Part shown: one piece after another, positions 12,421 through 36,328 of the stretch | How positions within the stretch are numbered: the first letter of the stretch is position 1 | Layout: every line of letters begins with the position of its first letter | Notes under the pieces: model-generated | Databases searched by the model: none | Seen by the model: the letters and a program-made list of their open reading frames with translations, nothing else | What the model was told of the DNA's origin: nothing | Assembly: GCA_902518965.1 (NCBI GenBank) | Contig: CABYIQ010000002.1 | Span: 62,001-126,000 of the forward strand | Source of the DNA: an uncultured SAR116 cluster alpha proteobacterium | GTDB lineage: Bacteria > Pseudomonadota > Alphaproteobacteria > Puniceispirillales > Puniceispirillaceae | Length of the DNA stretch: 64,000 bases | Reading direction: 5' to 3' | Position numbers and translations under genes: made by a program

Positions 12421-13428
12421 ATGGACAAATTATTTGCAGATAAGACAATTTTGATTACTGGGGGAACTGGCTCCTTCGGGCAAAAATTTGTAGAGGTTAT
12501 CCAAAGTTCATTTTCACCGAAAAAATTAATTGTATTCTCTCGTGACGAATTAAAGCAGTCTGAAATGCAACAAAAGTTCGCCCAATCCTCGATGAGATTT
12601 TTCATCGGCGACGTGCGAGATCAGGCCAGATTAGACGAAGCCTGTAGGGATGTGGACTTAATAGTACACGCTGCTGCTATGAAACAAGTTCCAGCCTCAG
12701 AATATAACCCAACAGAGTGTATTAAAACAAACATAGATGGCGCTCAAAATGTTATTAAAGCAGCACTAAATAATTCTGTAAGTTCTGTAATTGCACTATC
12801 AACTGATAAAGCCGCGAACCCGGTGAATCTTTATGGGGCAACAAAGCTTGCCTCTGATAAACTCTTTATAGCAGCGAACAATATCGTAGGTCAGAGAAAT
12901 ACAAAATTTTCAGTAGTGAGATATGGTAATGTTATTGGGTCTAGAGGCTCCATAGTTCCCTTATATCAGAGATTGATCTCTGAGAACTGTAAACATCTGC
13001 CAGTAACTCACCCCGGAATGACTAGATTTGTAATTACCCTCCGCCAGGGGGTTAAATTTGTAATTGACGCTTTCAGGAGAATGCAGGGTGGCGAAATTTT
13101 TGTTCCAAAGCTCCCATCGGTAAAAGTGATGACTGTAGCAGAGGCGCTTGGTCCTGATTTACCAACTAAAATTATTGGCATAAGGCCAGGAGAAAAACTT
13201 CACGAAGTAATGTGCTCCTCTGATGACAGTCATCTTGTTCTGGAATACGACAACCACTTCGTAATCAAGCCCTCTATTCAGATAAGAGAAGAGATCGACT
13301 ATTCAGTTGATAACATGGGTGATACCGGCAAACTTGTCTCCGAAGGCTTTGAATATCAATCTGGAACAAATTGTTCTTTTCTTGATGCTACTGAATTCAA
13401 CCAATTGGTCTCACTGTCAAAAAAATGA
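12421..13428 (+). CDS. pseB: UDP-GlcNAc 4,6-dehydratase (inverting) PseB
   Basis: First step of CMP-pseudaminic acid synthesis: 4,6-dehydration with C5 inversion of UDP-GlcNAc. The soluble SDR enzyme of 335 aa has TGGTGSFGQKFV (13-24), the FSRDELKQSEMQQKF segment diagnostic of PseB/FlaA1, ALSTDKAANPVNLYGATK with Tyr138/Lys142, and GIRPGEKLHE near the C-terminus. It lacks the membrane domain of the WbpM-type paralogue at 6971. It is followed 9 bases later by pseC. Confidence 0.95.
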   Translation: MDKLFADKTILITGGTGSFGQKFVEVIQSSFSPKKLIVFSRDELKQSEMQQKFAQSSMRFFIGDVRDQARLDEACRDVDLIVHAAAMKQVPASEYNPTECIKTNIDGAQNVIKAALNNSVSSVIALSTDKAANPVNLYGATKLASDKLFIAANNIVGQRNTKFSVVRYGNVIGSRGSIVPLYQRLISENCKHLPVTHPGMTRFVITLRQGVKFVIDAFRRMQGGEIFVPKLPSVKVMTVAEALGPDLPTKIIGIRPGEKLHEVMCSSDDSHLVLEYDNHFVIKPSIQIREEIDYSVDNMGDTGKLVSEGFEYQSGTNCSFLDATEFNQLVSLSKK

Positions 13429-13437
13429 GGTGCCAAC

Positions 13438-14610
13438 TTGATCCCTTATAGCAAACAAATCATCTCAAATGAGGATATTAATTCAGTCTTAGAGGTTCTA
13501 AAAAGTGATTGGTTGACACAAGGACCTATGATAGAGAAATTTGAAAAAAAAGTCTCTTCGATTTGTGGAAAACAGCTTTTGGGTACAGCATATAACAGTG
13601 CAACCTCTGCATTGCATGCCGCCTGTTATGCGTTAGGTTTAAGAGAAGGTGACATCCTCTGGACAGTGCCAAATTCATTTGTCGCAAGCGCGAATTGTGC
13701 AATTTTTTGCGGAGCGCAAGTAGACTTTGTCGATATCGACCCGAAATCTTGGAATATGTGTCCAATAAGCCTAAAAGATAAGTTAGAGTCCGCAGAACAT
13801 GATGGAAAACTTCCCAAAATAATTATTCCAGTGCATTTTTCTGGAATGAGTGCGGAGATGGCAGTAATTCATAAACTTGCCATGAAATATGGAATTAAAG
13901 TAATCGAAGATGCAAGCCACGCTTTAGGCGCTTCTTACAATGATACTATGGTGGGGAGTTGCAAATACAGCGACATAACAGTCTTCAGTTTTCACCCTGT
14001 TAAAATGATTACGACAGGCGAAGGGGGAATGGCAGTCACAAAAGATGAAAATTTAGACGGAAAAATGAAACTGTTTAGAAATCATGGCATCACCAGGGAT
14101 AGGCGAGACTTTAAAAATGCTGATATAGGCCCTTGGTCATATCAGCAAATTGGTTTGGGATACAATTATAGAATGACTGACATTGCTGCCGCATTAGGGC
14201 TATCCCAACTAAAAACACTACACAAATTTATTTCTGAAAGGCGCGCATATGCATCTCATTACTCTAAAGTTTTGGATGGGACACCTTACGTAAGTCAAGA
14301 AACAAAAATAGAGCATAACTCTTCGTGGCATTTGTATGTAATATGCATTCCAGACACGAAAAATAATCGTAATAATCGTCTAGCTATATTTAGATTTCTT
14401 AGGGAACAAAAAATCGGAGTGAATGTGCACTATGAACCTATTCACCTTCAACCATTCTACCGCAAAATGGGTTTCAGAGAAAACATGTTTTTGTCAGCAG
14501 AAAATTATTCTGAACGATGTTTATCCATCCCTCTATTTCCAACAATGACAACAGATACGCAAAACTATATCCTAAAAGCACTCAATGATGGTTTGGAGCT
14601 TATAAATTGA
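13438..14610 (+). CDS. pseC: UDP-4-amino-4,6-dideoxy-L-AltNAc transaminase PseC
   Basis: PLP-dependent DegT/DnrJ-family aminotransferase, second step of pseudaminic acid synthesis. It has 390 aa with VIEDASHALGASY, TVFSFHPVKMITTGEGG (internal aldimine Lys189) and the C-terminal VHYEPIHLQPFYRKMGF typical of PseC. The start is the TTG at 13438, which has GAGG about eight bases upstream and gives the family opening IPYSKQIISNEDI. It overlaps pseF by 4 bases. Confidence 0.94.
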   Translation: MIPYSKQIISNEDINSVLEVLKSDWLTQGPMIEKFEKKVSSICGKQLLGTAYNSATSALHAACYALGLREGDILWTVPNSFVASANCAIFCGAQVDFVDIDPKSWNMCPISLKDKLESAEHDGKLPKIIIPVHFSGMSAEMAVIHKLAMKYGIKVIEDASHALGASYNDTMVGSCKYSDITVFSFHPVKMITTGEGGMAVTKDENLDGKMKLFRNHGITRDRRDFKNADIGPWSYQQIGLGYNYRMTDIAAALGLSQLKTLHKFISERRAYASHYSKVLDGTPYVSQETKIEHNSSWHLYVICIPDTKNNRNNRLAIFRFLREQKIGVNVHYEPIHLQPFYRKMGFRENMFLSAENYSERCLSIPLFPTMTTDTQNYILKALNDGLELIN

Positions 14611-15308
14611 AAAGCATTTGTTTGATACCTGCAAAAGGCTTGTCAACACGCTTACCAAAGAAAAATTTAGAGAAAATTGGTGGGACCCCTCTCGTTGGGC
14701 TCGCCATTCAAAAAGCAAGAAGTTGTAGTATATTTAATGAAGTAATCGTTTCAACTGAAGATACGGAAATTGCTAAAATAAGCAAAAAATTTGGTGCTTT
14801 AGTGCCATCACTAAGGCCGAATAGATTGTCTGTAGACCCCGCAACTATAGTTGACGTAATGTTGCATGTTTTTGAAACTGCCGATTTTGTCGTTCAAAAC
14901 GCAAACTCAGTAACCATTTTGTTGCCCACAAGCCCTTTAGTGCAAATAGATGACATTATAGAAGCTAATCAGCTATTTGATAAGCATGGTGGATGCACCG
15001 TTTTGAGTGTCTGCGAAACAGATTTTCCACCTTTTAATGCATGGCTTATCACAGAAAAAAAAGAATTATTTCCTTGTTTCCCGGATTCAGAATATAAATT
15101 CACCAAATCGACTGAATGCCCAAAAACATACAGAAGTAACGGAGCGATTATGATATGCAACGTGGATAGTTTTTTGAAAAATAAATCCTATAGAACCGAC
15201 ACGATCATTCCCTATCTAATGCCCAAAGAACGCTCAATTGATATAGACACTTCATTGGATTTAGAAATCGCTAGATTTTTGATGAGCAATAAAAATAAAT
15301 TTAATTGA
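14607..15308 (+). CDS. pseF: Pseudaminic acid cytidylyltransferase PseF
   Basis: Activates pseudaminic acid with CTP to give CMP-Pse, the glycosyl donor. The 233-aa protein has the CMP-NulO synthetase N-terminus (CLIPAKGLSTRLPKKNLEKI), the STEDTEIAKISKKFGA segment, LLPTSPLVQIDDI and the C-terminal ERSIDIDTSLDLEIA. The start is the TTG at 14607 overlapping the pseC stop, which gives the expected KSICLIPAKG opening. A decayed copy of its C-terminus is present at 27073-27249. Confidence 0.93.
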   Translation: MKSICLIPAKGLSTRLPKKNLEKIGGTPLVGLAIQKARSCSIFNEVIVSTEDTEIAKISKKFGALVPSLRPNRLSVDPATIVDVMLHVFETADFVVQNANSVTILLPTSPLVQIDDIIEANQLFDKHGGCTVLSVCETDFPPFNAWLITEKKELFPCFPDSEYKFTKSTECPKTYRSNGAIMICNVDSFLKNKSYRTDTIIPYLMPKERSIDIDTSLDLEIARFLMSNKNKFN

Positions 15309-15354: not shown

Positions 15355-15963
15355 ATGAGAGATGATCAGGAAAAGTTCTGGGAAGGTGATTTTGGAGATG
15401 AATATATCGAAAGAAATAAAGGGCAAGAACTCATTAATGCAAAAGTGGACATGTTTTCAAAATCACTGAGCAAAGCTGAAAGTTTGAGTACAGTTTTAGA
15501 ATTAGGCTGCAATAGAGGTCTTAACGCATTCGCTTTAAAGAAAATCTTTCCTTATTTAGAATACACAGGCGTGGAAATATCAAAAACTGCTTATGATATT
15601 TTATGCAGCAACAGCGCTGTAAACTATGCTAAAAATGAATCAATCTATGATTTTACCCCCCCCAAAAAATACGATTTAGCAATTGTCACTGGAGTGTTAA
15701 TTCATCTTAATCCTGAAAAACTGCCCATAGCTTATTCAAAACTTCAAGAGTCATCAAAGCGTTATGTATTGATTGCCGAATATTTCAATCCAATACCAGT
15801 GTCCATAGATTACAGGGGTCATAAAGAAAAATTATTCAAAAGAGACTTTGCAAAGGAATTCATGGATCAAAGTGGATTTAAACTAGTTGATTATGGGTTT
15901 CTTTACAGATTTGACCAGAAGTTTAAGCACGATGATATGACTTGGTTCTTGCTAGAAAAATAA
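15355..15963 (+). CDS. Pseudaminic acid biosynthesis-associated methyltransferase
   Basis: Class I SAM-dependent methyltransferase of 202 aa. The opening FWEGDFGDEYIERN is characteristic of the family repeatedly found in pseudaminic acid loci. SAM-binding motif I is VLELGCNRGLNAFAL (about 46-60), and motif IV is near DLAIVTGVLIHL. The substrate is unknown; methylation of the nonulosonic acid or its precursor is inferred from position after pseF. A decayed copy of its first 24 codons lies at 27315-27386, again right after a pseF relic, so the pseF-methylase pair was once duplicated. Confidence 0.85.
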   Translation: MRDDQEKFWEGDFGDEYIERNKGQELINAKVDMFSKSLSKAESLSTVLELGCNRGLNAFALKKIFPYLEYTGVEISKTAYDILCSNSAVNYAKNESIYDFTPPKKYDLAIVTGVLIHLNPEKLPIAYSKLQESSKRYVLIAEYFNPIPVSIDYRGHKEKLFKRDFAKEFMDQSGFKLVDYGFLYRFDQKFKHDDMTWFLLEK

Positions 15964-17200: not shown

Positions 17201-17760
17201 AAATACTGAAAATTCCCGGCAATCTCGGAGCTTTGGTAAAATGGGCTGGTCAATTCTCAAAGGTTGAGTTCATAAATGAAAGTAAAATTTGTAGTCTAGC
17301 CAAAAATGAGATCCTGTGTCTGCCTGGAGGAAATATAGGTTCTTTGCCAACAAAAAGCCTGCAAATTGAAATCTCAAATTTTTTAAAAGATGGTGGTAGG
17401 TTATTTGCAGTTTGCGGAGCCTTTCAAGCTTTGTTTTCGTCAAATGAAGAAGACGATACCGGGCACTATTTGTCATTATTTCCATCCAGAGGCTACAGGC
17501 TAAAGTGCCCCAATATTGGTTTCAACAAAATAGAGGCAAGTTGGTGCGCAATCAATGCATACTTCAACTGTAAATATGGAGTACATTATAATAAAGATGA
17601 CTGGGTTCAGTCAGACGTTGATCATGTGAATTTGGCAACCGACAAGTTGGGCAATTTGCAAGCAATCCAGACCAACTCTATCTTAGGCGTACAGTTTCAT
17701 CCTGAGCTGTCATTTGGAAATTTTGATGCGGTATTTGAAAATTGGGTTTTAGAAAGATAG
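17197..17760 (+). CDS. HisH-like class I glutaminase, copy 1
   Basis: Predicted to release ammonia from glutamine for the adjacent WbpG-type enzyme. The 187 aa show the PGGN oxyanion strand, a nucleophile elbow AVCGAFQALF (Cys present and Gln kept, but the usual GxCxG glycine pattern altered) and the catalytic His-Glu pair in VQFHPEL. It is shorter and more divergent than the HisH copies at 30757 and 45402. It overlaps its neighbours on both sides. Unlike the other two copies there is no HisF-like partner next to it; the following gene is unrecognised. Confidence 0.82.
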   Translation: MKILKIPGNLGALVKWAGQFSKVEFINESKICSLAKNEILCLPGGNIGSLPTKSLQIEISNFLKDGGRLFAVCGAFQALFSSNEEDDTGHYLSLFPSRGYRLKCPNIGFNKIEASWCAINAYFNCKYGVHYNKDDWVQSDVDHVNLATDKLGNLQAIQTNSILGVQFHPELSFGNFDAVFENWVLER

Positions 17761-18401
17761 CTTCGCTGTTGGTGGAAGCCAGCACAACATATATAAAGTT
17801 TGAGCAGCAAAGGTTTCCTTTATGGAATATTGATGAGCATCTTGATTATCTTTCAGAATTTGATTTCACAGATGTGATAATATGCAGTGGAAAAGCCGGG
17901 GCCCTGTTGGAATTTAAATTAGAACACTTCGTTAATTATGCCGCCGGTATAGGTTGGTCACATGTTAAAATGACACCTCGACTATTTGACTATGGCTACT
18001 CAAAAATTTTTTTTGGGGGCAGTAATAGACCGCTACCTAACAATGAGGAATATAAAATTTTTTGCGATTTGCTAAAAATGTATGGAAGTTCATCTTTTGG
18101 CCTCAATGTCCATTTTAAAGACAAAAAAAAGTTAAAACAAAATAAAGACTTGCTAGATCATTTTTCTGAAATAAACATTATAGATGAGTTTTTACAATTG
18201 ACGTTTGATAAAGCTGCAGCCGAAAATTTAGTAAAAAAAATTGATAATTTTGGAAATCCAAACAATAACGAATTTAACTTGATAGCACCAAAAAAAACTT
18301 GGGAGTTCATTAACAAAAAATCTAAGATAAACCTCAATTATGTCAATTATTGTGAACATGCAATTGGTACTACAGTGAAATGCAATGCTCAAAATGTTTA
18401 A
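17742..18401 (+). CDS. Unrecognised protein within the amidation module
   Basis: 219-aa protein that I do not recognise. It overlaps the HisH-like gene before it by 19 bases and the WbpG-like gene after it by 22 bases, so it is firmly embedded in the module and takes the position a HisF partner would have. The sequence has alternating hydrophobic strands and helices. A stretch around SGKAGALLEF followed by VKMTPRLFDYG is faintly like the GGEP region of radical-SAM TIM barrels, but there is no CxxxCxxC cluster, so that resemblance is only a hint. The start is a TTG at 17742, and a later TTG near 17769 is possible. Confidence 0.75.
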   Translation: MGFRKIASLLVEASTTYIKFEQQRFPLWNIDEHLDYLSEFDFTDVIICSGKAGALLEFKLEHFVNYAAGIGWSHVKMTPRLFDYGYSKIFFGGSNRPLPNNEEYKIFCDLLKMYGSSSFGLNVHFKDKKKLKQNKDLLDHFSEINIIDEFLQLTFDKAAAENLVKKIDNFGNPNNNEFNLIAPKKTWEFINKKSKINLNYVNYCEHAIGTTVKCNAQNV

Positions 18402-19549
18402 TCAGTGATAGTCATCCATTTGGGGTTTTCTTTGATGCTAATGGAATTTGCTCAGGATGTAATGCGTTCAATAACAGACGGAATGCTCTGCCACTTTGGA
18501 ATGACAGTTCTAGTCAGTCGAGGCTCAAACACAGATTTCTAGAAAATTTCCAAGAAGTCCCTGACAAAGCAATCGTCCCATTCGAACCAGATGGAGAAAC
18601 TTGGTTCGTGTTAGAAACTCTGAACGACCTCAGTATTCAACCCGTTGTTGTGTACTTTAACACTCAGTACGCTGACTTTAAATATTTCGAAATGTTATCA
18701 GTATGTCAGGAAAATTTTGACTGTGACTTCTTAGGTTTTTCAATTCCTCAGGAATTAATCAAGTGGTGTATCGCTGAAGAGTTAGCTTGTGGACTTGGAC
18801 ACGGAAGAAAATTAGAAATTTTTGGAAGGTACATATCTTGTTTATTTGCAGCCGAAAAATTGAATATTCACCATGTATTTTCAGGTCCAAATCAACAATC
18901 CGAAATTGTTGGCAATCATAATTATGTAGTAGCAAATCAGTTAAAATTGCCTGCAATTCTAAAATTTGTGACCGGAGGACCACTCCTACCTCAAGTGCAG
19001 CAAGCCCTGAATAGTAACGGTTCAGCATTTACAACACGCTTCAGCGCTAAATTCGCAAATTACATGTTAAACAAGATACATTGGCATCACTTGAGTGACT
19101 ATATTTTTTGGGATAGCCAAAACATCAATAATTTTTTTGGTAAAAAGTTTAAAGTTAAGCCAAGGGATGTTAATGGCTACGCTGAGTGCTGGCAGGCATC
19201 TTCATCCGCACTTAAACTTGAATATTTTGACTTAATCCGAATAATGATAACGGGTCACTCGAAAATAGAGAGTTATCTCTCTAGGGATATACGTTTTGGT
19301 CGAATTGACAAATTTGGTGCTGAAGCAGCACTGAAACGTTACCTTCAAAAAGAGTGGGATTTATTGGGGTTTTCAAAATTTATGGGTATAGATGCTGATG
19401 ATGTGCTTCATGGGTTGGATTTGATGAACAAGTCCAAGAGACTGCGATATCATCCATCAAACTTCAAGCGCAGACCATCCTCATATTCTATTTCTCACCA
19501 CCAAGTCCTCTTTCCGCGAGCGTCTAAATTACAAATAAAAGAGGTTTAA
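18380..19549 (+). CDS. WbpG-family paralogue lacking the PP-loop
   Basis: 389 aa. The N-terminus is a clear WbpG/WbuX zinc ribbon (Cys3, Cys6, Cys24, Cys27 with the family spacing FDANGICSGC). The next strand should carry SGGxDS. Aligned with copies at 23707 and 32148, that motif is replaced by EPDGETW (69-75), with loss of the ATP-pyrophosphate loop. The fold seems kept (VVVYFNTQY in place of LVLHVDAGW, VFSGPNQQSE for the second nucleotide region). It is therefore probably a non-ATP-using scaffold, sugar-binding partner or altered enzyme. The ATG overlaps the previous gene and the next gene begins directly after the stop. Confidence 0.8.
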   Translation: MQCSKCLISDSHPFGVFFDANGICSGCNAFNNRRNALPLWNDSSSQSRLKHRFLENFQEVPDKAIVPFEPDGETWFVLETLNDLSIQPVVVYFNTQYADFKYFEMLSVCQENFDCDFLGFSIPQELIKWCIAEELACGLGHGRKLEIFGRYISCLFAAEKLNIHHVFSGPNQQSEIVGNHNYVVANQLKLPAILKFVTGGPLLPQVQQALNSNGSAFTTRFSAKFANYMLNKIHWHHLSDYIFWDSQNINNFFGKKFKVKPRDVNGYAECWQASSSALKLEYFDLIRIMITGHSKIESYLSRDIRFGRIDKFGAEAALKRYLQKEWDLLGFSKFMGIDADDVLHGLDLMNKSKRLRYHPSNFKRRPSSYSISHHQVLFPRASKLQIKEV

Positions 19550-20587
19550 ATGAAAAGCTCAAGCCTAAGGCAGTTATTTAACAGACCAAAAGAAAATCAG
19601 ATCTTTATAATTGCTGACCTTGGTCTTACCAATGGAGGTTCATTACAAAGAGCCCTTGAATTAGTTCAAGTCGCTGGTGAATTGGGGGTGGATGCGGTTA
19701 AATTCCAAATGCTCGATTCTGAAGAGCTTCTTGGAGACAAATCAGCTGAATATACTTATCCCACAATTATTAATGGCACCAAAACTGAAAATATGTACGA
19801 AATGTTTTTGGGTTTGGAATTCAATGATACTGAATGGCGTACGATAAAAACTGAATGCGACAAACTAGGACTTGGATTAATTATCACATGTCATGTGCAG
19901 AGCGCCGTTGAGCGCTTGAATAAACTAGATCTTCCTGTGAACAAAATTTGTTCGTGGAGCCTATCACATTTCAAGATGATAAAGTCCCTAGCTCAAAACG
20001 GAAAACCACTAATACTTGACACAGGCCCAATAGACGAAACAGAACTGAATGAGATTAGGGCTTTTTACTCAGATAATGGCGGTGGCGACGTCTTTGTGCT
20101 CTTTGATTTTCATACAGAAAAAACTGAGACAATGAATTTTCTAGCTATCAAATCTTTAATCCAAAATGGATATGAGGTTGGTTATACACCACAAGGCAGA
20201 AGAGATTGGCTAGACTTTATGGCCATTGGTTTGGGCGCAAATATTATTGAAAAGCGCCTCACTCTTTCTAGAACAAAGCCAGAAAATGGGCACTGGAAAG
20301 CCCATGAACCTAGCGAATTCGCCGAGTGGATGAGCCGCATAAAAGAGTGCTACATCGCCCTTGGCGAACAAAAGCTAACTCCAACACCTGACGACTTGGC
20401 CGCCACAAAAAATTGGTATAAATCGGCTTGGCTCGAACGAGATGTAAGTCGCGGTGAATTAATAACAGAGGATGCCTTCAACTACAAACGTCCAGGCACC
20501 GGCATCACATCAAAAGAGGTTACAAAATTTTACATAGGCCATAAATTCACCAAAAACTATCAGAAGGGTGATCTTTTTGAGGGATAA
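19550..20587 (+). CDS. Divergent NeuB-family protein without metal-binding histidines
   Basis: 345-aa homologue of nonulosonic acid synthases (NeuB/PseI): IADLGLTNGGSLQRALEL in place of IxEIGxNHxG, VDAVKFQ, then a TIM-barrel and a C-terminal SAF-like domain with KRPGTGI. Both conserved His that bind Mn in NeuB are gone. The SDH site reads GYTPQGR (211-217) and the EKHxTL site reads EKRLTLS (234-240). The HCxSxYP motif is also missing. The normal PseI at 22393 keeps all of these. It is unlikely to run the PEP condensation in the known way. It starts one base after the preceding stop. Role unknown. Confidence 0.82.
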   Translation: MKSSSLRQLFNRPKENQIFIIADLGLTNGGSLQRALELVQVAGELGVDAVKFQMLDSEELLGDKSAEYTYPTIINGTKTENMYEMFLGLEFNDTEWRTIKTECDKLGLGLIITCHVQSAVERLNKLDLPVNKICSWSLSHFKMIKSLAQNGKPLILDTGPIDETELNEIRAFYSDNGGGDVFVLFDFHTEKTETMNFLAIKSLIQNGYEVGYTPQGRRDWLDFMAIGLGANIIEKRLTLSRTKPENGHWKAHEPSEFAEWMSRIKECYIALGEQKLTPTPDDLAATKNWYKSAWLERDVSRGELITEDAFNYKRPGTGITSKEVTKFYIGHKFTKNYQKGDLFEG

Positions 20588-20592
20588 ATTTT

Positions 20593-21654
20593 TTGAATCA
20601 AGACATTACAAACAACGACCCAATTTGCATCATAAGGGTAGATGGACACAGTGAGGTGGGCTTTGGCCACTTATCAAGAACCAGAACCATCGCTGAAAGC
20701 CTACAAAATGAGGATATACGTTGCGTCTTCGCAATAACAGAAAAAACCATTAGCTCAAGTGCAAATGCAATAATCTCCGGATTTGAGACTATAGCCCTTA
20801 GAGGAAATGAAACTTTAGCCAGCAAATTAACAAAAAACAGAATACCCGCGCCGGCGGTGCTTTTAATTGACCACTATGGAGACGGACGTGAAGAGTTATT
20901 GGACAGCTATTTTTCTGACACTCTTCGGGTTTTGATAGATGACACCTCATTTCACAATAAATTTTGTGACTTATTCATAAACCCAAACGGCTTTCCTAAT
21001 ACCTCTCACGAAATCGCAGATTGCTCTTTGTTTGGACCTAAATATATGCCTGTATCTGAGAATATCGCTTCTCTGGCAGGAACTTGGAGAGCTAATCATA
21101 CCTTGTCGAAGCCTCCAATTTGCCTGGTTTCACTTGGAGCAACTGATCCAAACGCTCTATCCATTGAAATACTAAATAGTTTATCAAAAATTGAGGTTTC
21201 AAGAAAATTTGAATTTAAAATCCTTCTCTCCAATGCTTCAAAAACTTTAGCCCAGACAAGAGATTTTATGAGTACTCTTCAACCAAGACTTAATTTAAAA
21301 TTAATTTCAAATAAAATTGACCTGAGTCAGTTATATGCGCAAGCCCACTGCTGTATTGGCGCTTCGGGCGTCTCTGCTTGGGAGAGAGCCATTGTCGGCT
21401 TACCCTGCGCCCTTGTTCTTACTGCAAGCAATCAAAAAATTATCAAAGACTACTTAACCGAACAAAAAGCTGTTTTCCCTATCGAAAAGCTGAATAGCAA
21501 ACAACTCAACCTAAAATTAGAAAGATTTTTAGAATTAGCTTTTTTAAATGCACCAGAGTTCTTAGCCATATCAAATAAGTCAAAAAAACTCCTAGACGGT
21601 AAAGGAGCTCGCCGAATATCAAATTCTATCGCTACTCGTATCCAAAAATCTTAG
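20593..21654 (+). CDS. pseG: UDP-2,4-diacylamido-trideoxy-altrose hydrolase PseG
   Basis: Removes UDP from the 2,4-diamido-2,4,6-trideoxy-L-altrose nucleotide in pseudaminic acid synthesis. GT-B-like protein of 353 aa with the PseG opening IIRVDGHSEVGFGHLSRTRTIAESL (catalytic His in GFGHLSR region), LIDHYG, CLVSLGATDPNALS and the late CIGASGVSAWERAIVGLP. The TTG at 20593 is the only plausible start. Upstream is GAGGG with about ten bases spacing. It is five bases after the NeuB-like gene, linking the odd module to a complete Pse pathway. Confidence 0.9.
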   Translation: MNQDITNNDPICIIRVDGHSEVGFGHLSRTRTIAESLQNEDIRCVFAITEKTISSSANAIISGFETIALRGNETLASKLTKNRIPAPAVLLIDHYGDGREELLDSYFSDTLRVLIDDTSFHNKFCDLFINPNGFPNTSHEIADCSLFGPKYMPVSENIASLAGTWRANHTLSKPPICLVSLGATDPNALSIEILNSLSKIEVSRKFEFKILLSNASKTLAQTRDFMSTLQPRLNLKLISNKIDLSQLYAQAHCCIGASGVSAWERAIVGLPCALVLTASNQKIIKDYLTEQKAVFPIEKLNSKQLNLKLERFLELAFLNAPEFLAISNKSKKLLDGKGARRISNSIATRIQKS

Positions 21655-21749
21655 TTGTACTATAGTTTACAAAACTCTAACATTAACCAAATTGGCCCAC
21701 CTGATGTATAGCAATTTAGAAAATTTTTTAAACAAGTTGGGAGAGAGAA

Positions 21750-22403
21750 ATTAAAATTGACATATTATTAAGTGAGCACTCGCACCCCATTTCAGAAATG
21801 GTGAGAGATTTCATAGGCAAACTTGATCCAAGAATTAAAGCTAATTTGCTATTTGATGAAAATGAACTTTCCGAAGGCGATCTTTTGTTTCTGATTTCCT
21901 TTCATAAAATACTAAAAAATCAAGATATAGCTAATTATCGCCACTCACTTTTGTTGCATGCTAGCGATTTACCAGACGGAAGAGGCTGGAGCCCACACAT
22001 TTGGGAACTAATTAAAGGCAAAAATAATATAACTGTCTCAATTTTAGAAGTCTCATATCCGGCAGACACTGGTAGAATTTTAGAAAAATTGATTGTTGAG
22101 ATTCCAGAAACGGCAATCTGTTCTGAAATCAATCAACTTGTTTTCAACGCTGAACTTTCCTTAATGAAAAATGCGATTTCCGCTTATCCAAATCTTTTAT
22201 TTCACAAACAGAGGGAACCTAGTGACAGCGATAACATTTGGCCCAGGCGAACACCACAAAATAGTCAAATTGACCCCTTTAAAACCATAGCTGAGCAATT
22301 CAACCTTTTGAGAGTTTGTGATCCAGAGCGTTTTCCAGCTTTTTTTTACCATAAAGATAGAAAATATAAGTTATTTTTAGAGGTTGAAACCGATGAAGAT
22401 TGA
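21750..22403 (+). CDS. Formyltransferase-family protein, apparent ATT start
   Basis: Predicted N-formyltransferase acting on an amino sugar. Motifs LLHASDLPDGRGWSPHIW (formyl-folate and catalytic region, with the usual N/H/D pattern seen as HASD) and RVCDPERFPAFF are those of sugar formyltransferases found in nonulosonic acid clusters. The first in-frame ATG (21798) would remove the first beta strand. The open frame continues upstream through KIDILLSEHSHPISEM, which matches the family N-terminus. The only initiator is then ATT at 21750, preceded by GGGAGAGAG. No PseH acetyltransferase is present in the window, so this gene probably supplies the 4-N-acyl (future N7) group as formyl. Confidence 0.8.
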   Translation: MKIDILLSEHSHPISEMVRDFIGKLDPRIKANLLFDENELSEGDLLFLISFHKILKNQDIANYRHSLLLHASDLPDGRGWSPHIWELIKGKNNITVSILEVSYPADTGRILEKLIVEIPETAICSEINQLVFNAELSLMKNAISAYPNLLFHKQREPSDSDNIWPRRTPQNSQIDPFKTIAEQFNLLRVCDPERFPAFFYHKDRKYKLFLEVETDED

Positions 22404-23436
22404 TAAGCGAATCATACATGATGATTTTCCTCCTTATATAATCGGTGAAGTTTCCGCAAATCATAACGGCTCAATTGATAATGCAAAAAAAATTATAATG
22501 CTTGCTAAAAAGGGAGGATTTGACGCAGTCAAACTCCAAACCTATACAGCCGAAACTTTAACTATAGCTTCAGACAAAGAAGATTTTTTCATTAAGTCTG
22601 GCTTATGGGCAGGAAAATCTTTATTCAGCTTATATGAAGAGGCTCACATGCCTTGGGAATGGCAGCCCGAACTTTTCAAATATGCAAGAAGGATTGGCAT
22701 AACTATATTTAGTTCAGTTTTTGATAAGTCATCCATAGAATTTTTAGAATCTTTAAATTGTCCGGCATATAAAATCGCCTCATTCGAGTGTGTAGATTTA
22801 GAGCTTATTGAATTCGCCGCAAAAACCAAAAAGCCAATTATAATTTCGACGGGTCTGGCATCTTTTGAAGAAATAGAAACTGCTTACAAAACAGCAATTG
22901 CCGCAGGCTCTCGAGAAGTAGCTTTACTCCACTGCATTAGCAGCTATCCAGCCAAATGTGAAAAGTATAAGCTTAGCATTATCAGTGACTTGAAAAAAAA
23001 ATTTAATGTTGTTGTCGGCCTATCTGACCATTCCATCGGAAATTTGGCTGCAGCTTGCTCAATACCGCTTGGTGCTCGCATTGTAGAGAAACACATAACA
23101 CTCGATAACAATGGAGGAGGTCCGGATGATCCATTTTCACTTTCGGCAGAGCAATATAGCGAATTCTGTAACACCATTCAGTCATCTTGGGAAAGCTTAG
23201 GGGTGCCCGATTATTTGAGGGATGAAGCTGAGCTAGAAAACATTTGCTTTAGACGTTCACTTTACTTTGTATCAAACCTAAAAGCTGGTGAAAAAATAAA
23301 GCGTGCTGATATCAGAAGCATACGACCCGGATATGGATTGCCCCCAAAATTTTTAGAGGATTTTATTGGGAAAAAAATATTGAAAGAGTGTCGAGTAGGA
23401 GACCGTGTTGAGTGGTCTGTTATCGAACACAATTGA
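22393..23436 (+). CDS. pseI: Pseudaminic acid synthase PseI
   Basis: NeuB-family TIM-barrel enzyme that condenses the trideoxy-altrose derivative with PEP to pseudaminic acid. Intact motifs: IIGEVSANHNGSIDNA, FDAVKLQTYTAETLT, YKIASFECVD, LLHCISSYPA, GLSDHSIG and EKHITLDNNGGGPDDPFS, so both Mn-binding His are present. The C-terminal SAF domain has RSIRPGYGLPP. I choose ATG 22393, which has AGAGG nine bases upstream and overlaps the formyltransferase end; an in-frame TTG at 22384 is too close to that site. A 270-base AT-rich gap without a recognised gene follows. Confidence 0.94.
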   Translation: MKIDKRIIHDDFPPYIIGEVSANHNGSIDNAKKIIMLAKKGGFDAVKLQTYTAETLTIASDKEDFFIKSGLWAGKSLFSLYEEAHMPWEWQPELFKYARRIGITIFSSVFDKSSIEFLESLNCPAYKIASFECVDLELIEFAAKTKKPIIISTGLASFEEIETAYKTAIAAGSREVALLHCISSYPAKCEKYKLSIISDLKKKFNVVVGLSDHSIGNLAAACSIPLGARIVEKHITLDNNGGGPDDPFSLSAEQYSEFCNTIQSSWESLGVPDYLRDEAELENICFRRSLYFVSNLKAGEKIKRADIRSIRPGYGLPPKFLEDFIGKKILKECRVGDRVEWSVIEHN

Positions 23437-30756: not shown

Positions 30757-31377
30757 ATGAGCGAGAAAAAGGTTGGCATTCTAGATGTGGGTCTCGGTAA
30801 CGCTGGGTCCGTTGAACGCATGCTCAGCAAGGCTGGCGGGATTGGCGCGCGGATAACAGACCCAAACGACCTCAATGATGTAAGCGGCTTAATAATTCCA
30901 GGTGTGGGTAGTTTTGATCCAGCGATGGTAAGAATACGAGAAGCGGGATTTGAGCAAGCAATTTACAAGATAATCGATAACACAAATGTTCCTGTGTTAG
31001 GCATTTGCCTTGGAATGCATCTTTTGTGCAATTCAAGTGAAGAAGGAAATCTGAATGGCCTCGGCGTTGTGGATGCTAAAGTGAGAGATTTGAAACGTTT
31101 TGCCTGTGGTTTACCAACTCCTAATATGGGTTGGAGAGAAGTAGCGGTGACTTCCCTAAATCCTTTGCTTGAGGAGGGAAGCAAACAAAGGTTTTATTTC
31201 GTACATTCCTATTACGTCGATATGCCAGAAAACGAATTCCAGATTTTTCAGTCGAGTTATGGCTTTGACTTTTGCTGCGGCTTTAAAATTGGCAAGGTTT
31301 TAGGAGTTCAGTTTCACCCAGAAAAAAGTCATAAATATGGTCTAAATTTTTTTAAAAAATTCGTTAAAATGTTATGA
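30757..31377 (+). CDS. HisH-like class I glutaminase, copy 2
   Basis: Glutaminase subunit homologous to HisH (imidazole glycerol phosphate synthase), here feeding ammonia to a sugar amidotransferase. GILDVGLGNAGSVERML start, IIPGVGSFDPAM, nucleophile LGICLGMHLL (Cys present but the usual Gln after GM is His), TPNMGWREV, and VQFHPEKS with catalytic His/Glu. I choose ATG 30757; an in-frame TTG at 30727 adds ten unconserved residues. It overlaps the HisF-like gene by 4 bases and the trio continues into WbpG at 32148. Confidence 0.88.
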   Translation: MSEKKVGILDVGLGNAGSVERMLSKAGGIGARITDPNDLNDVSGLIIPGVGSFDPAMVRIREAGFEQAIYKIIDNTNVPVLGICLGMHLLCNSSEEGNLNGLGVVDAKVRDLKRFACGLPTPNMGWREVAVTSLNPLLEEGSKQRFYFVHSYYVDMPENEFQIFQSSYGFDFCCGFKIGKVLGVQFHPEKSHKYGLNFFKKFVKML

Positions 31378-34498: not shown

Positions 34499-36328
34499 AT
34501 GTGTGGCATTTTTGGTGTGGTTTCTCGGGATGGCCGCTTAGATAAAAATGATTTAAGTTTGTTGGTAAAGGCTTCGAGACAAAGAGGGCGAGACTCGAGC
34601 GGCTTGGCCTTTAAAGCAAAGGGCTCAAAATTATTATCTGTTGAGAGAGCAGATTATGACATCTATAAATTGCTCTCAAATGTGAAAAAAGAAAATTTGG
34701 AATTAGTCCTTGGACATAGCCGACTAATCACCAACAGTCACACTGATAACCAGCCCGTTGTTAAGGAAGATATTTGTGTTTTTCACAATGGGATAATTGT
34801 GAACACCAAAAAAGTATGGAAACAAGTAAAAGCAACCCAAAATTTGGAAATTGACTCTGAAGTTCTTGTAGGGCTCACTGAAGAATTTCTATTATCGAAA
34901 TCTAATAAGTCGAAGATTTCGGAGCTAGGTAAATATATAATTGCTAGATGTGAGGGAGTAGTAGCGGCCGCAATATTAATTGGCCGACTTGGTAAACTAG
35001 TACTTTTCTCAAACAATGGAAGTTTATATTTTGGCAAAAATGAAAGAGGTACCTACTACGCTTCTGAAAAATTCCCACTCAAAAAAATTCAATGTGAAGA
35101 CATTGTTCAAGTTCGTGAGAATGCCATTGTTGTTGACATAGAAACTGAGACAGTAATCAAAGTTAATGACCATCAAGTAAGTCGAAAAAATCTGGTTCCA
35201 GCCCTAGGTAACCTCTCCCAACAAGAAAAAAAGCTCGTTTTTGAGCCACACTCACTCAAGCGCTGCGCTAAGTGTATACTACCCCAAACTATGCCATTTA
35301 TAACTTTTGATGCGAATGGCATTTGCAATTACTGTAATAACTACGAAGTGCGAAACAATCCCAAACCGAAGGATCTTCTATATAAGTCGCTGGAGAGATT
35401 TCGGCGCCATCAGGGTGCTGAATGTATTGTACCTTTCTCTGGTGGCCGAGATAGTTGCTATGGGCTACATTTAATAGTAAATGAGCTAAAATTAGAGCCC
35501 ATCACCTACACATACGATTGGGGCATGGTTACTGACCTCGGGCGAAGAAATATTTCTCGCATGTGTTCCAACCTTGGAGTTGAAAATATCATTGTCGCCG
35601 CAGATATCGGATTAAAGAGGAGGAACATCAATAAAAATTTACGTGCTTGGCTTCGTTCCCCTAATTTAGGCATGGTAAGCATTCTTACAGCCGGAGATAA
35701 ACATTTTTTTAAACACGTCGAGACAATCAAAAGACAAACGGGAATATCGCTAAATCTTTGGGGTATAAATCCGTTGGAAGTTACTCATTTTAAATCTGGT
35801 TTTCTCGGCATAAAACCGGATTTTGAAGAAAAAATGGTTTACTCCAATGGCGCCATTAAGCAAATGCGATACCAATTACTTAGGTTGTGTGCAATGAGCA
35901 AAAGTTTAGGGTATTTCAACACTTCAATTTGGGATACGTTATCCGGAGAATATTATCGCAGCTTCACACAGAAATCTGATTATTTTCATATTTTTGATTA
36001 TTGGCGCTGGGATGAGGCAGATATCAATAAAACATTAAAACTCTATGATTGGGAGATGGCGCCAGACACCCAAACGACTTGGCGTATCGGTGATGGGACC
36101 GCAGCATTTTACAACTATATTTATTATACTGTTGCTGGTTTCACCGAGCATGACACTTTTCGTAGCAACCAAATTCGTGAGGGCGACATTAGTCGAGAGG
36201 AAGCTTTGCGCTTGGTTGCAGATGAAAACAGGCCACGATATCCGAATATAAAATGGTACCTTGACGCTGTAGATATAGAGTTTGAAGAAGCCGTCAAGGT
36301 AGTCAATGCCATGCCAAGAATGTATTAA
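34499..36328 (+). CDS. Fusion: class II glutaminase + WbpG-type PP-loop amidotransferase
   Basis: 609-aa two-domain protein. Residues 1 to about 230 are an Ntn-hydrolase (class II) glutaminase: Cys2 nucleophile after Met in MCGIFGVVS, RQRGRDSSG, GHSRLIT and the oxyanion FHNGII. Residues about 250-609 are a WbpG-family enzyme: ribbon cysteines 256, 259, 276, 279, then PP-loop FSGGRDSC (313-320), LNLWGINPLE, and a Trp/Tyr-rich C-terminus. The architecture parallels asparagine synthetase but with the sugar-amidation synthase. It would supply its own ammonia, so no HisH/HisF is needed. GAGAGGAAG precedes the ATG. It lies between two glycosyltransferases. Confidence 0.88.
   Translation: MCGIFGVVSRDGRLDKNDLSLLVKASRQRGRDSSGLAFKAKGSKLLSVERADYDIYKLLSNVKKENLELVLGHSRLITNSHTDNQPVVKEDICVFHNGIIVNTKKVWKQVKATQNLEIDSEVLVGLTEEFLLSKSNKSKISELGKYIIARCEGVVAAAILIGRLGKLVLFSNNGSLYFGKNERGTYYASEKFPLKKIQCEDIVQVRENAIVVDIETETVIKVNDHQVSRKNLVPALGNLSQQEKKLVFEPHSLKRCAKCILPQTMPFITFDANGICNYCNNYEVRNNPKPKDLLYKSLERFRRHQGAECIVPFSGGRDSCYGLHLIVNELKLEPITYTYDWGMVTDLGRRNISRMCSNLGVENIIVAADIGLKRRNINKNLRAWLRSPNLGMVSILTAGDKHFFKHVETIKRQTGISLNLWGINPLEVTHFKSGFLGIKPDFEEKMVYSNGAIKQMRYQLLRLCAMSKSLGYFNTSIWDTLSGEYYRSFTQKSDYFHIFDYWRWDEADINKTLKLYDWEMAPDTQTTWRIGDGTAAFYNYIYYTVAGFTEHDTFRSNQIREGDISREEALRLVADENRPRYPNIKWYLDAVDIEFEEAVKVVNAMPRMY

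Follow-up and report, generated by a model that had tools for sequence, protein, structure and literature searches.

The protein encoded at positions 19550–20587 of the window, i.e., the whole stretch of 64,000 nucleotides from an uncultured SAR116 cluster alphaproteobacterium analyzed here, belongs to a clade of NeuB/PseI homologs in which both manganese-binding histidines are replaced. Judged from sequence, we give an even chance that the His-lacking NeuB is a re-tooled enzyme that, alongside a normal PseI, catalyzes a second step or a side branch in the synthesis of nonulosonic acids of the pseudaminic type. The fixed, clade-wide loss of the ligands supports the assumption that it would not act as a canonical Mn-dependent synthase, as had been supposed in the initial annotation of the window protein, while the two options offered there, binding of the sugar without catalysis and a metal-independent reaction, are inseparable by sequence.

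The reading frame is unbroken and its ATG directly follows the stop codon of the preceding gene. The protein consists of a barrel (approximately residues 18–275) and a SAF-like C-terminal domain (approximately residues 285–345). The barrel is matched by PF03102 (NeuB family; E = 4.5e-35, 121.7 bits, gathering cut-off 22.1), and the protein also gives full-length matches below threshold to the equivalog models TIGR03569 (NeuB; 164.8 bits vs. a cut-off of 399.65) and TIGR03586 (PseI; 137.3 bits vs. a cut-off of 340.25). The view that the C-terminal domain is kept is borne out by these full-length matches, by the presence of R314 and by a structure alignment extending to residue 345, but not by the Pfam SAF model, which stays below threshold in this protein and is above it in the PseI of the window. 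For comparison with known structures, a structure was predicted from ten clade members (mean pLDDT 89.8). Over 331 aligned residues each, this model matches NeuB 1xuu with a Z score of 32.0 (rmsd 5.1) and PseI 8h2c with a Z score of 31.1 (rmsd 4.0); NeuB and PseI structures are its best structural matches, and the PseI of Campylobacter jejuni (8h2c) is also the best PDB sequence match of the window protein. The model shows the complete set of eight barrel strands and places residues 23, 51, 113, 132, 157, 188, 213–215 and 234–236 in or just past the strand ends, on the face of the NeuB site. As modeled, the protein has the NeuB/PseI architecture of a beta/alpha barrel plus a C-terminal SAF-like domain.

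Site residues were counted in nine non-redundant clade members and compared with 105 ordinary NeuB/PseI homologs, the ligands being numbered by alignment to NeuB from Neisseria meningitidis; as the clade members share descent, the counts show fixation and not independent events. The replacement of SDH and EKHxTL by GYTPQGR and EKRLT was read as first described, such that the Mn2+ ligands H215 and H236 of NeuB correspond to Q215 and R236, and HCxSxYP is indeed lost, with FDFHTEK and a two-residue deletion in its place. Both histidines are kept in 105/105 comparison sequences. H215 is present in none of the nine clade members and its position varies freely (Q, K, P, D, I, S), while the position of H236 is occupied by R throughout (9/9 vs. 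H in 105/105). Further exchanges concern S154 (D157 in 9/9 vs. S in 98/105 homologs), Y186 (H188 in 9/9 vs. Y in 104/105) and D247 (H or G in the clade vs. D in 103/105). R236, D157, H188 and a novel tryptophan, W136, occur in every clade member and in none of the 105 homologs at those positions; three members found later (L147, L149, L152) carry the same four replacements. Retained in 9/9 members are K51 and K132, equivalent to K53 and K129 of NeuB, as well as E234 and R314; residue 23, the equivalent of NeuB E25, is E or D, S/T is mostly retained at positions 113 and 213, and nearly all members have acquired His at position 247 or 248. Pocket positions are conserved to 0.79 in the clade compared with 0.56 overall, a value as high being reached by 2 of 20,000 random sets. 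By these residue patterns, the site of the clade is rebuilt and not merely eroded. Since R236, D157, H188 and W136 are invariant and K51, K132, E234 and R314 are retained, a working but altered site is favored over a dead one.

The NeuB-family phylogeny with site mapping, likewise proposed at the outset, yielded a single clade of twelve distinct His-lacking sequences (UFBoot 100/SH-aLRT 100) in which ligand loss is fixed and which lies outside the PseI clade. It comprises the window protein and, as MAG or viral-contig sequences, one protein each from a Methylophaga and a Nitrospiraceae MAG and those from nine viral contigs, with L066 and L147 near-identical. The two bacterial relatives (L023 from Methylophaga, 47% identity; L024 from Nitrospiraceae, 32% identity) were retrieved in a scan with one genome per species, and both read GYxxxGR and EKRLT. 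A first viral scan with the window protein as single query returned nothing; a profile of the three bacterial sequences led to the IMG/VR members L066–L074 and L135, and a ten-member profile added L147, L149 and L152, with profile scores cleanly parting clade members from ordinary NeuBs. Strict-threshold scans of 398 pseudomonadotal genomes, 369 genomes of the class of Methylophaga, 295 genomes of the phylum of the Nitrospiraceae and 385 genomes of the class of the window organism gave zero further members. Because these approximately 1,400 other genomes added none, the gene appears rare and patchy, as would be expected of a laterally moved gene. The top-scoring sequences of a strict-threshold scan, L225 and L226, retain SDH and EKH and were rejected as members. 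Plasmids and phage GenBank records gave weak matches only (<30% identity at best) and no close kin, and no family for the protein was found in PHROGs. Several of the viral contigs clearly derive from phages, with markers that include a capsid family (L073), a minor capsid family (L074) and a terminase-like ORF read from sequence (L149).

Similar to the His-lacking clade, a group formed by L032, L039 and L099 has D at position 157 in a DTG motif (S154 replaced by D), has D222 and has lost H236 (EKT/EKN), but it keeps H215 and Y186. It constitutes a separate clade (100/99) that stands next to the His-lacking clade with modest support in one tree (86), a placement left unresolved by a more careful one; a halfway state in a stepwise loss of ligands is a suggestion only. 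NeuB-like proteins with H215 kept, H236 replaced by T/N and S154 replaced by D were observed at L062:9752-10852, L063:9834-10904 and L099:4827-6008, the L062 copy adjoining HisH, HisF, WbuX and PseF-like genes. Short phage NeuB-like proteins without recognizable EKH are encoded beside intact NeuB at L079:7501-8268 and L113:3594-4325 and possibly represent a second kind of altered companion.

The window gene is part of a pseudaminic-type cluster (12421 to ~24939) on contig 2 of a 1.94-Mb assembly that is 76% complete and in which only two PF03102 genes were found, the 19550 gene and that for PseI. Genes for PseB, PseC, PseF, a TIGR03587 methylase, a WbuX-like protein, a HisH-like glutaminase, an orphan ORF and a WbuX paralog without PP-loop are followed by the His-lacking gene, PseG, a formyltransferase-like gene, PseI and another WbuX (Table 1). 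An intact PseI is thus present nearby as annotated, the 2.8 kb originally given being the distance from start to start and the actual gap measuring 1.8 kb (20587 to 22384).

Table 1. Features of the pseudaminic-type cluster and altered active-site motifs of the His-lacking protein (positions in the window).
Feature	Position	Strand	Remarks
PseB-like 4,6-dehydratase	12421..13428	+	Named from sequence; homologs accompany the His-lacking gene in most loci
PseC-like aminotransferase	13438..14610	+	Named from sequence
PseF-like CMP-sugar synthetase	14607..15308	+	Named from sequence
Pseudaminic-acid-biosynthesis-associated methylase	15355..15963	+	TIGR03587, 239 bits, cut-off 112
WbuX-type amidotransferase paralog	18380..19549	+	PP-loop lost, FEPDGETW vs. 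SGGKDS in others
His-lacking NeuB/PseI-family gene	19550..20587	+	345 aa; ATG start; profile, alignment, model
DTG codons (residues 157–159)	20018..20026	+	Replaces STG; D157 fixed across clade
FDFHTEK codons (residues 185–191)	20102..20122	+	Replaces HCxSxYP; H188 fixed across clade (Y186 position)
GYTPQGR codons (residues 211–217)	20180..20200	+	Replaces G[LY]SDH motif; H215 replaced by Q
EKRLT codons (residues 234–238)	20249..20263	+	Replaces EKHxT; H236 replaced by R
PseG-like UDP-sugar hydrolase, directly 3' of the His-lacking gene	20593..21654	+	TIGR03590, 129 bits, cut-off 154
Formyltransferase-like protein, directly 5' of PseI	21798..22403	+	Domain recurs in L066, L074, L147, L152
Intact PseI, canonical partner	22384..23436	+	SDH and EKH kept; TIGR03586, 429.8 bits, cut-off 340

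The WbuX paralog 5' of the His-lacking gene keeps its CxxC pairs, and two altered-site paralogs adjoin here. The orphan ORF (17742-18401, 219 aa), situated between the HisH-like gene and the altered WbuX, has zero Pfam or NCBIfam matches and no homolog in the relatives or in plasmids; a relation to HisF was considered and is unsupported. HisF-like genes are located at 31374 and 44633 within an island (16079-47209) that also contains six WbuX-type amidotransferase genes (16079, 18380, 23704, 32148, 34499, 46046; partly named from sequence only), one of which (34499-36328) is a fusion with a domain resembling class II glutaminases. Proteins with a formyltransferase domain are encoded beside NeuB not only in the window but also at L066:7763-8344, L074:8766-9254, L152:4599-5126 and in L147, suggesting N-formylated nonulosonic acids.

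With regard to the genomic neighborhood, an intact NeuB/PseI is present within the fetched stretch in all 13 loci that contain the His-lacking gene, compared with two NeuBs in 7/70 other viral NeuB loci (nominal Fisher p = 1.5e-10, a value that overstates independence) and in 21/123 loci of an enlarged control set that contains some redundancy. The partners span several NeuB clades: they are PseI in the window, L023 and L024, members of another clade in L066, L147 and L152 and of yet another in L067, L070, L072 and L149, and short, SAF-less forms in L073 and L074, each His-lacking sub-clade retaining its own partner class. Because the paired NeuBs are so diverse, the association points to a pathway link more than to a tight dimer. 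Genes for PseB, PseC and a CMP-sugar synthetase accompany the His-lacking gene in most loci, and the synthetase gene directly adjoins it in seven of them (L023, L024, L066, L147, L152, L073, L074), which speaks for a nonulosonic acid as ligand or product. When examined as possible cognate synthetases, these adjoining enzymes gave a mixed picture, falling into two deeply separate classes. L066, L147 and L152 contain two NeuBs and two synthetases, the one behind the His-lacking gene forming a clade of its own, and such NeuB-synthetase pairs suggest two branches. Near-complete viral nonulosonic-acid clusters comprising PseB, PseC, NeuB, synthetase and acetyl-/formyltransferase were observed in L066, L067, L072, L073, L074, L149 and L152, in whose searched stretches a PseG match is absent.

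The retained anchors and the fixed new polar residues speak for a ligand-binding, probably catalytic site. The protein may still bind a 2-keto-3-deoxy acid or the sugar from which such an acid is made, and this ligand would sit between K51, K132, E234 and D/E23 of the barrel and R314 from the SAF-like domain of the partner subunit. R236 could take over charge stabilization from Mn2+, and D157 and H188 could act as acid/base groups. Candidate reactions are an altered condensation and the epimerization or some other modification of a nonulosonic acid, and the product would be passed to a CMP-sugar synthetase. Among the site residues of NeuB we also count S154, S132, K53 and D247. The described contacts of NeuB are Glu25, Gln55, Asn74, Thr110, Phe112, Lys129, Asn184, Tyr186, Ser213, His215, Glu234, Phe288 and Arg314 (PMC6795526). 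Several points speak against a re-tooled enzyme. Contacts to PEP or the intermediate are partly lost in the clade (S154 replaced by D, the N184 region deleted, F112 variable) and nothing fixed replaces the ligand H215. In addition, only one CMP-synthetase is found in the seen stretches of the window, L023, L024, L073, L074 and L149, and, by analogy, exchange of a single Mn histidine (H245A) in Caulobacter NeuB sharply reduced function (PMC7591256). As some function was left upon over-expression of this variant, losing one Mn histidine alone need not end activity. On the other hand, Caulobacter NeuB ceased to function when it lacked either the Glu that stabilizes the intermediate (E30) or the Arg of the SAF domain (R322) (PMC7591256), and these are the types of residues that the His-lacking clade keeps (E or D at position 23; R314). 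A precedent of related fold exists in the metal-independent KDO8P synthases of the N23 type, in which the metal site was lost and the chemistry kept (PMC3052366). There, however, Asn replaces a metal-binding Cys, whereas here both NeuB ligands are lost, one being replaced by Arg; with approximately 10% identity, KDO8P synthase is compared with the His-lacking protein by fold similarity only.

That the His-lacking protein is instead a non-catalytic partner, forming a mixed dimer with the intact NeuB/PseI or controlling it otherwise, e.g., by contributing the SAF-like domain that carries R314 in the way NeuB subunits do for each other, would agree with the linked intact NeuB in every locus seen, with the overlapping or abutting genes in L067, L070, L072 and L149, with the retained C-terminal domain and R314 and with the short, SAF-less NeuBs of L073 and L074; NeuB itself is a domain-swapped homodimer (PMC7591256, PMC6795526). 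We nevertheless regard such a pseudoenzyme as unlikely, given that the pocket has acquired new residues that are fixed and do not drift, that many SAF-less phage NeuBs occur without any His-lacking partner and that partners from several NeuB clades are unexpected for a close, co-evolved dimer, though sub-clades keep their partner class. Slightly less probable still is a metal-dependent, PEP-using synthase that makes a different nonulosonic acid and would hold its metal by other residues (D157, H188, E234, His 247/248). While the gain of D157 and H188 in 9/9 members and of His 247/248 in nearly all, the retention of K51, K132 and E234 and of S/T mostly at 113 and 213, and the co-occurrence of D157 with H215 in L032, L039 and L099, as if D replaced H236, could be read in its favor, the position of D157 is that of S154, and together with the alteration of N184 and Y186 this makes NeuB-like binding of PEP doubtful. 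A decaying pseI duplicate without function might be supposed from the lost catalytic motifs and from the 5' neighbor (18380), which is also devoid of its catalytic loop. We consider this highly improbable and, for the clade, it is ruled out by open frames, by conservation of the same replacements across all 12 sequences, which stem from phages as well as three bacterial lineages, and by low dN/dS ratios that show purifying selection on the phage copies, with 0.055–0.11 for the His-lacking genes of scorable phage pairs (0.01–0.07 for their intact partners).

The preferred reading as a re-tooled enzyme is set apart from the established enzymes as follows. The His-lacking protein shares with NeuB (N. 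meningitidis 1xuu/2wqp; TIGR03569) the barrel, the C-terminal domain and the equivalents of K53, K129, E234 and R314, but it is only 23% identical to it, and both Mn histidines, S154, Y186 and D247 are replaced. Like PseI (C. jejuni 8h2c; TIGR03586), it is encoded in pseudaminic-type clusters; unlike PseI, it falls outside the PseI clade, and the window already has an intact PseI. No description of NeuB paralogs without Mn histidines was found in the open-access literature searched, which is weak evidence of novelty. A more general proposal, a NeuB-fold family common to bacteria and phages that would make or reshape a second nonulosonic acid with an Arg-Asp-His arrangement instead of the NeuB manganese site, always beside a normal synthase, is put forward tentatively and with less confidence than the preferred reading.

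The carbon skeleton of the sialic-acid-like sugars on bacterial surfaces is the product of NeuB-type enzymes, whose sequences serve to predict which sugar a cluster yields; members of the His-lacking clade would be misannotated as sialic acid synthases. The clade is a natural case of metal-site exchange in the NeuB fold, present in phages with sugar-synthesis clusters, and an altered metal site kept beside the normal enzyme points to an unrecognized step. If a second nonulosonic acid is indeed made without the manganese site, this would constitute a new reaction in the synthesis of sialic-acid-like sugars.
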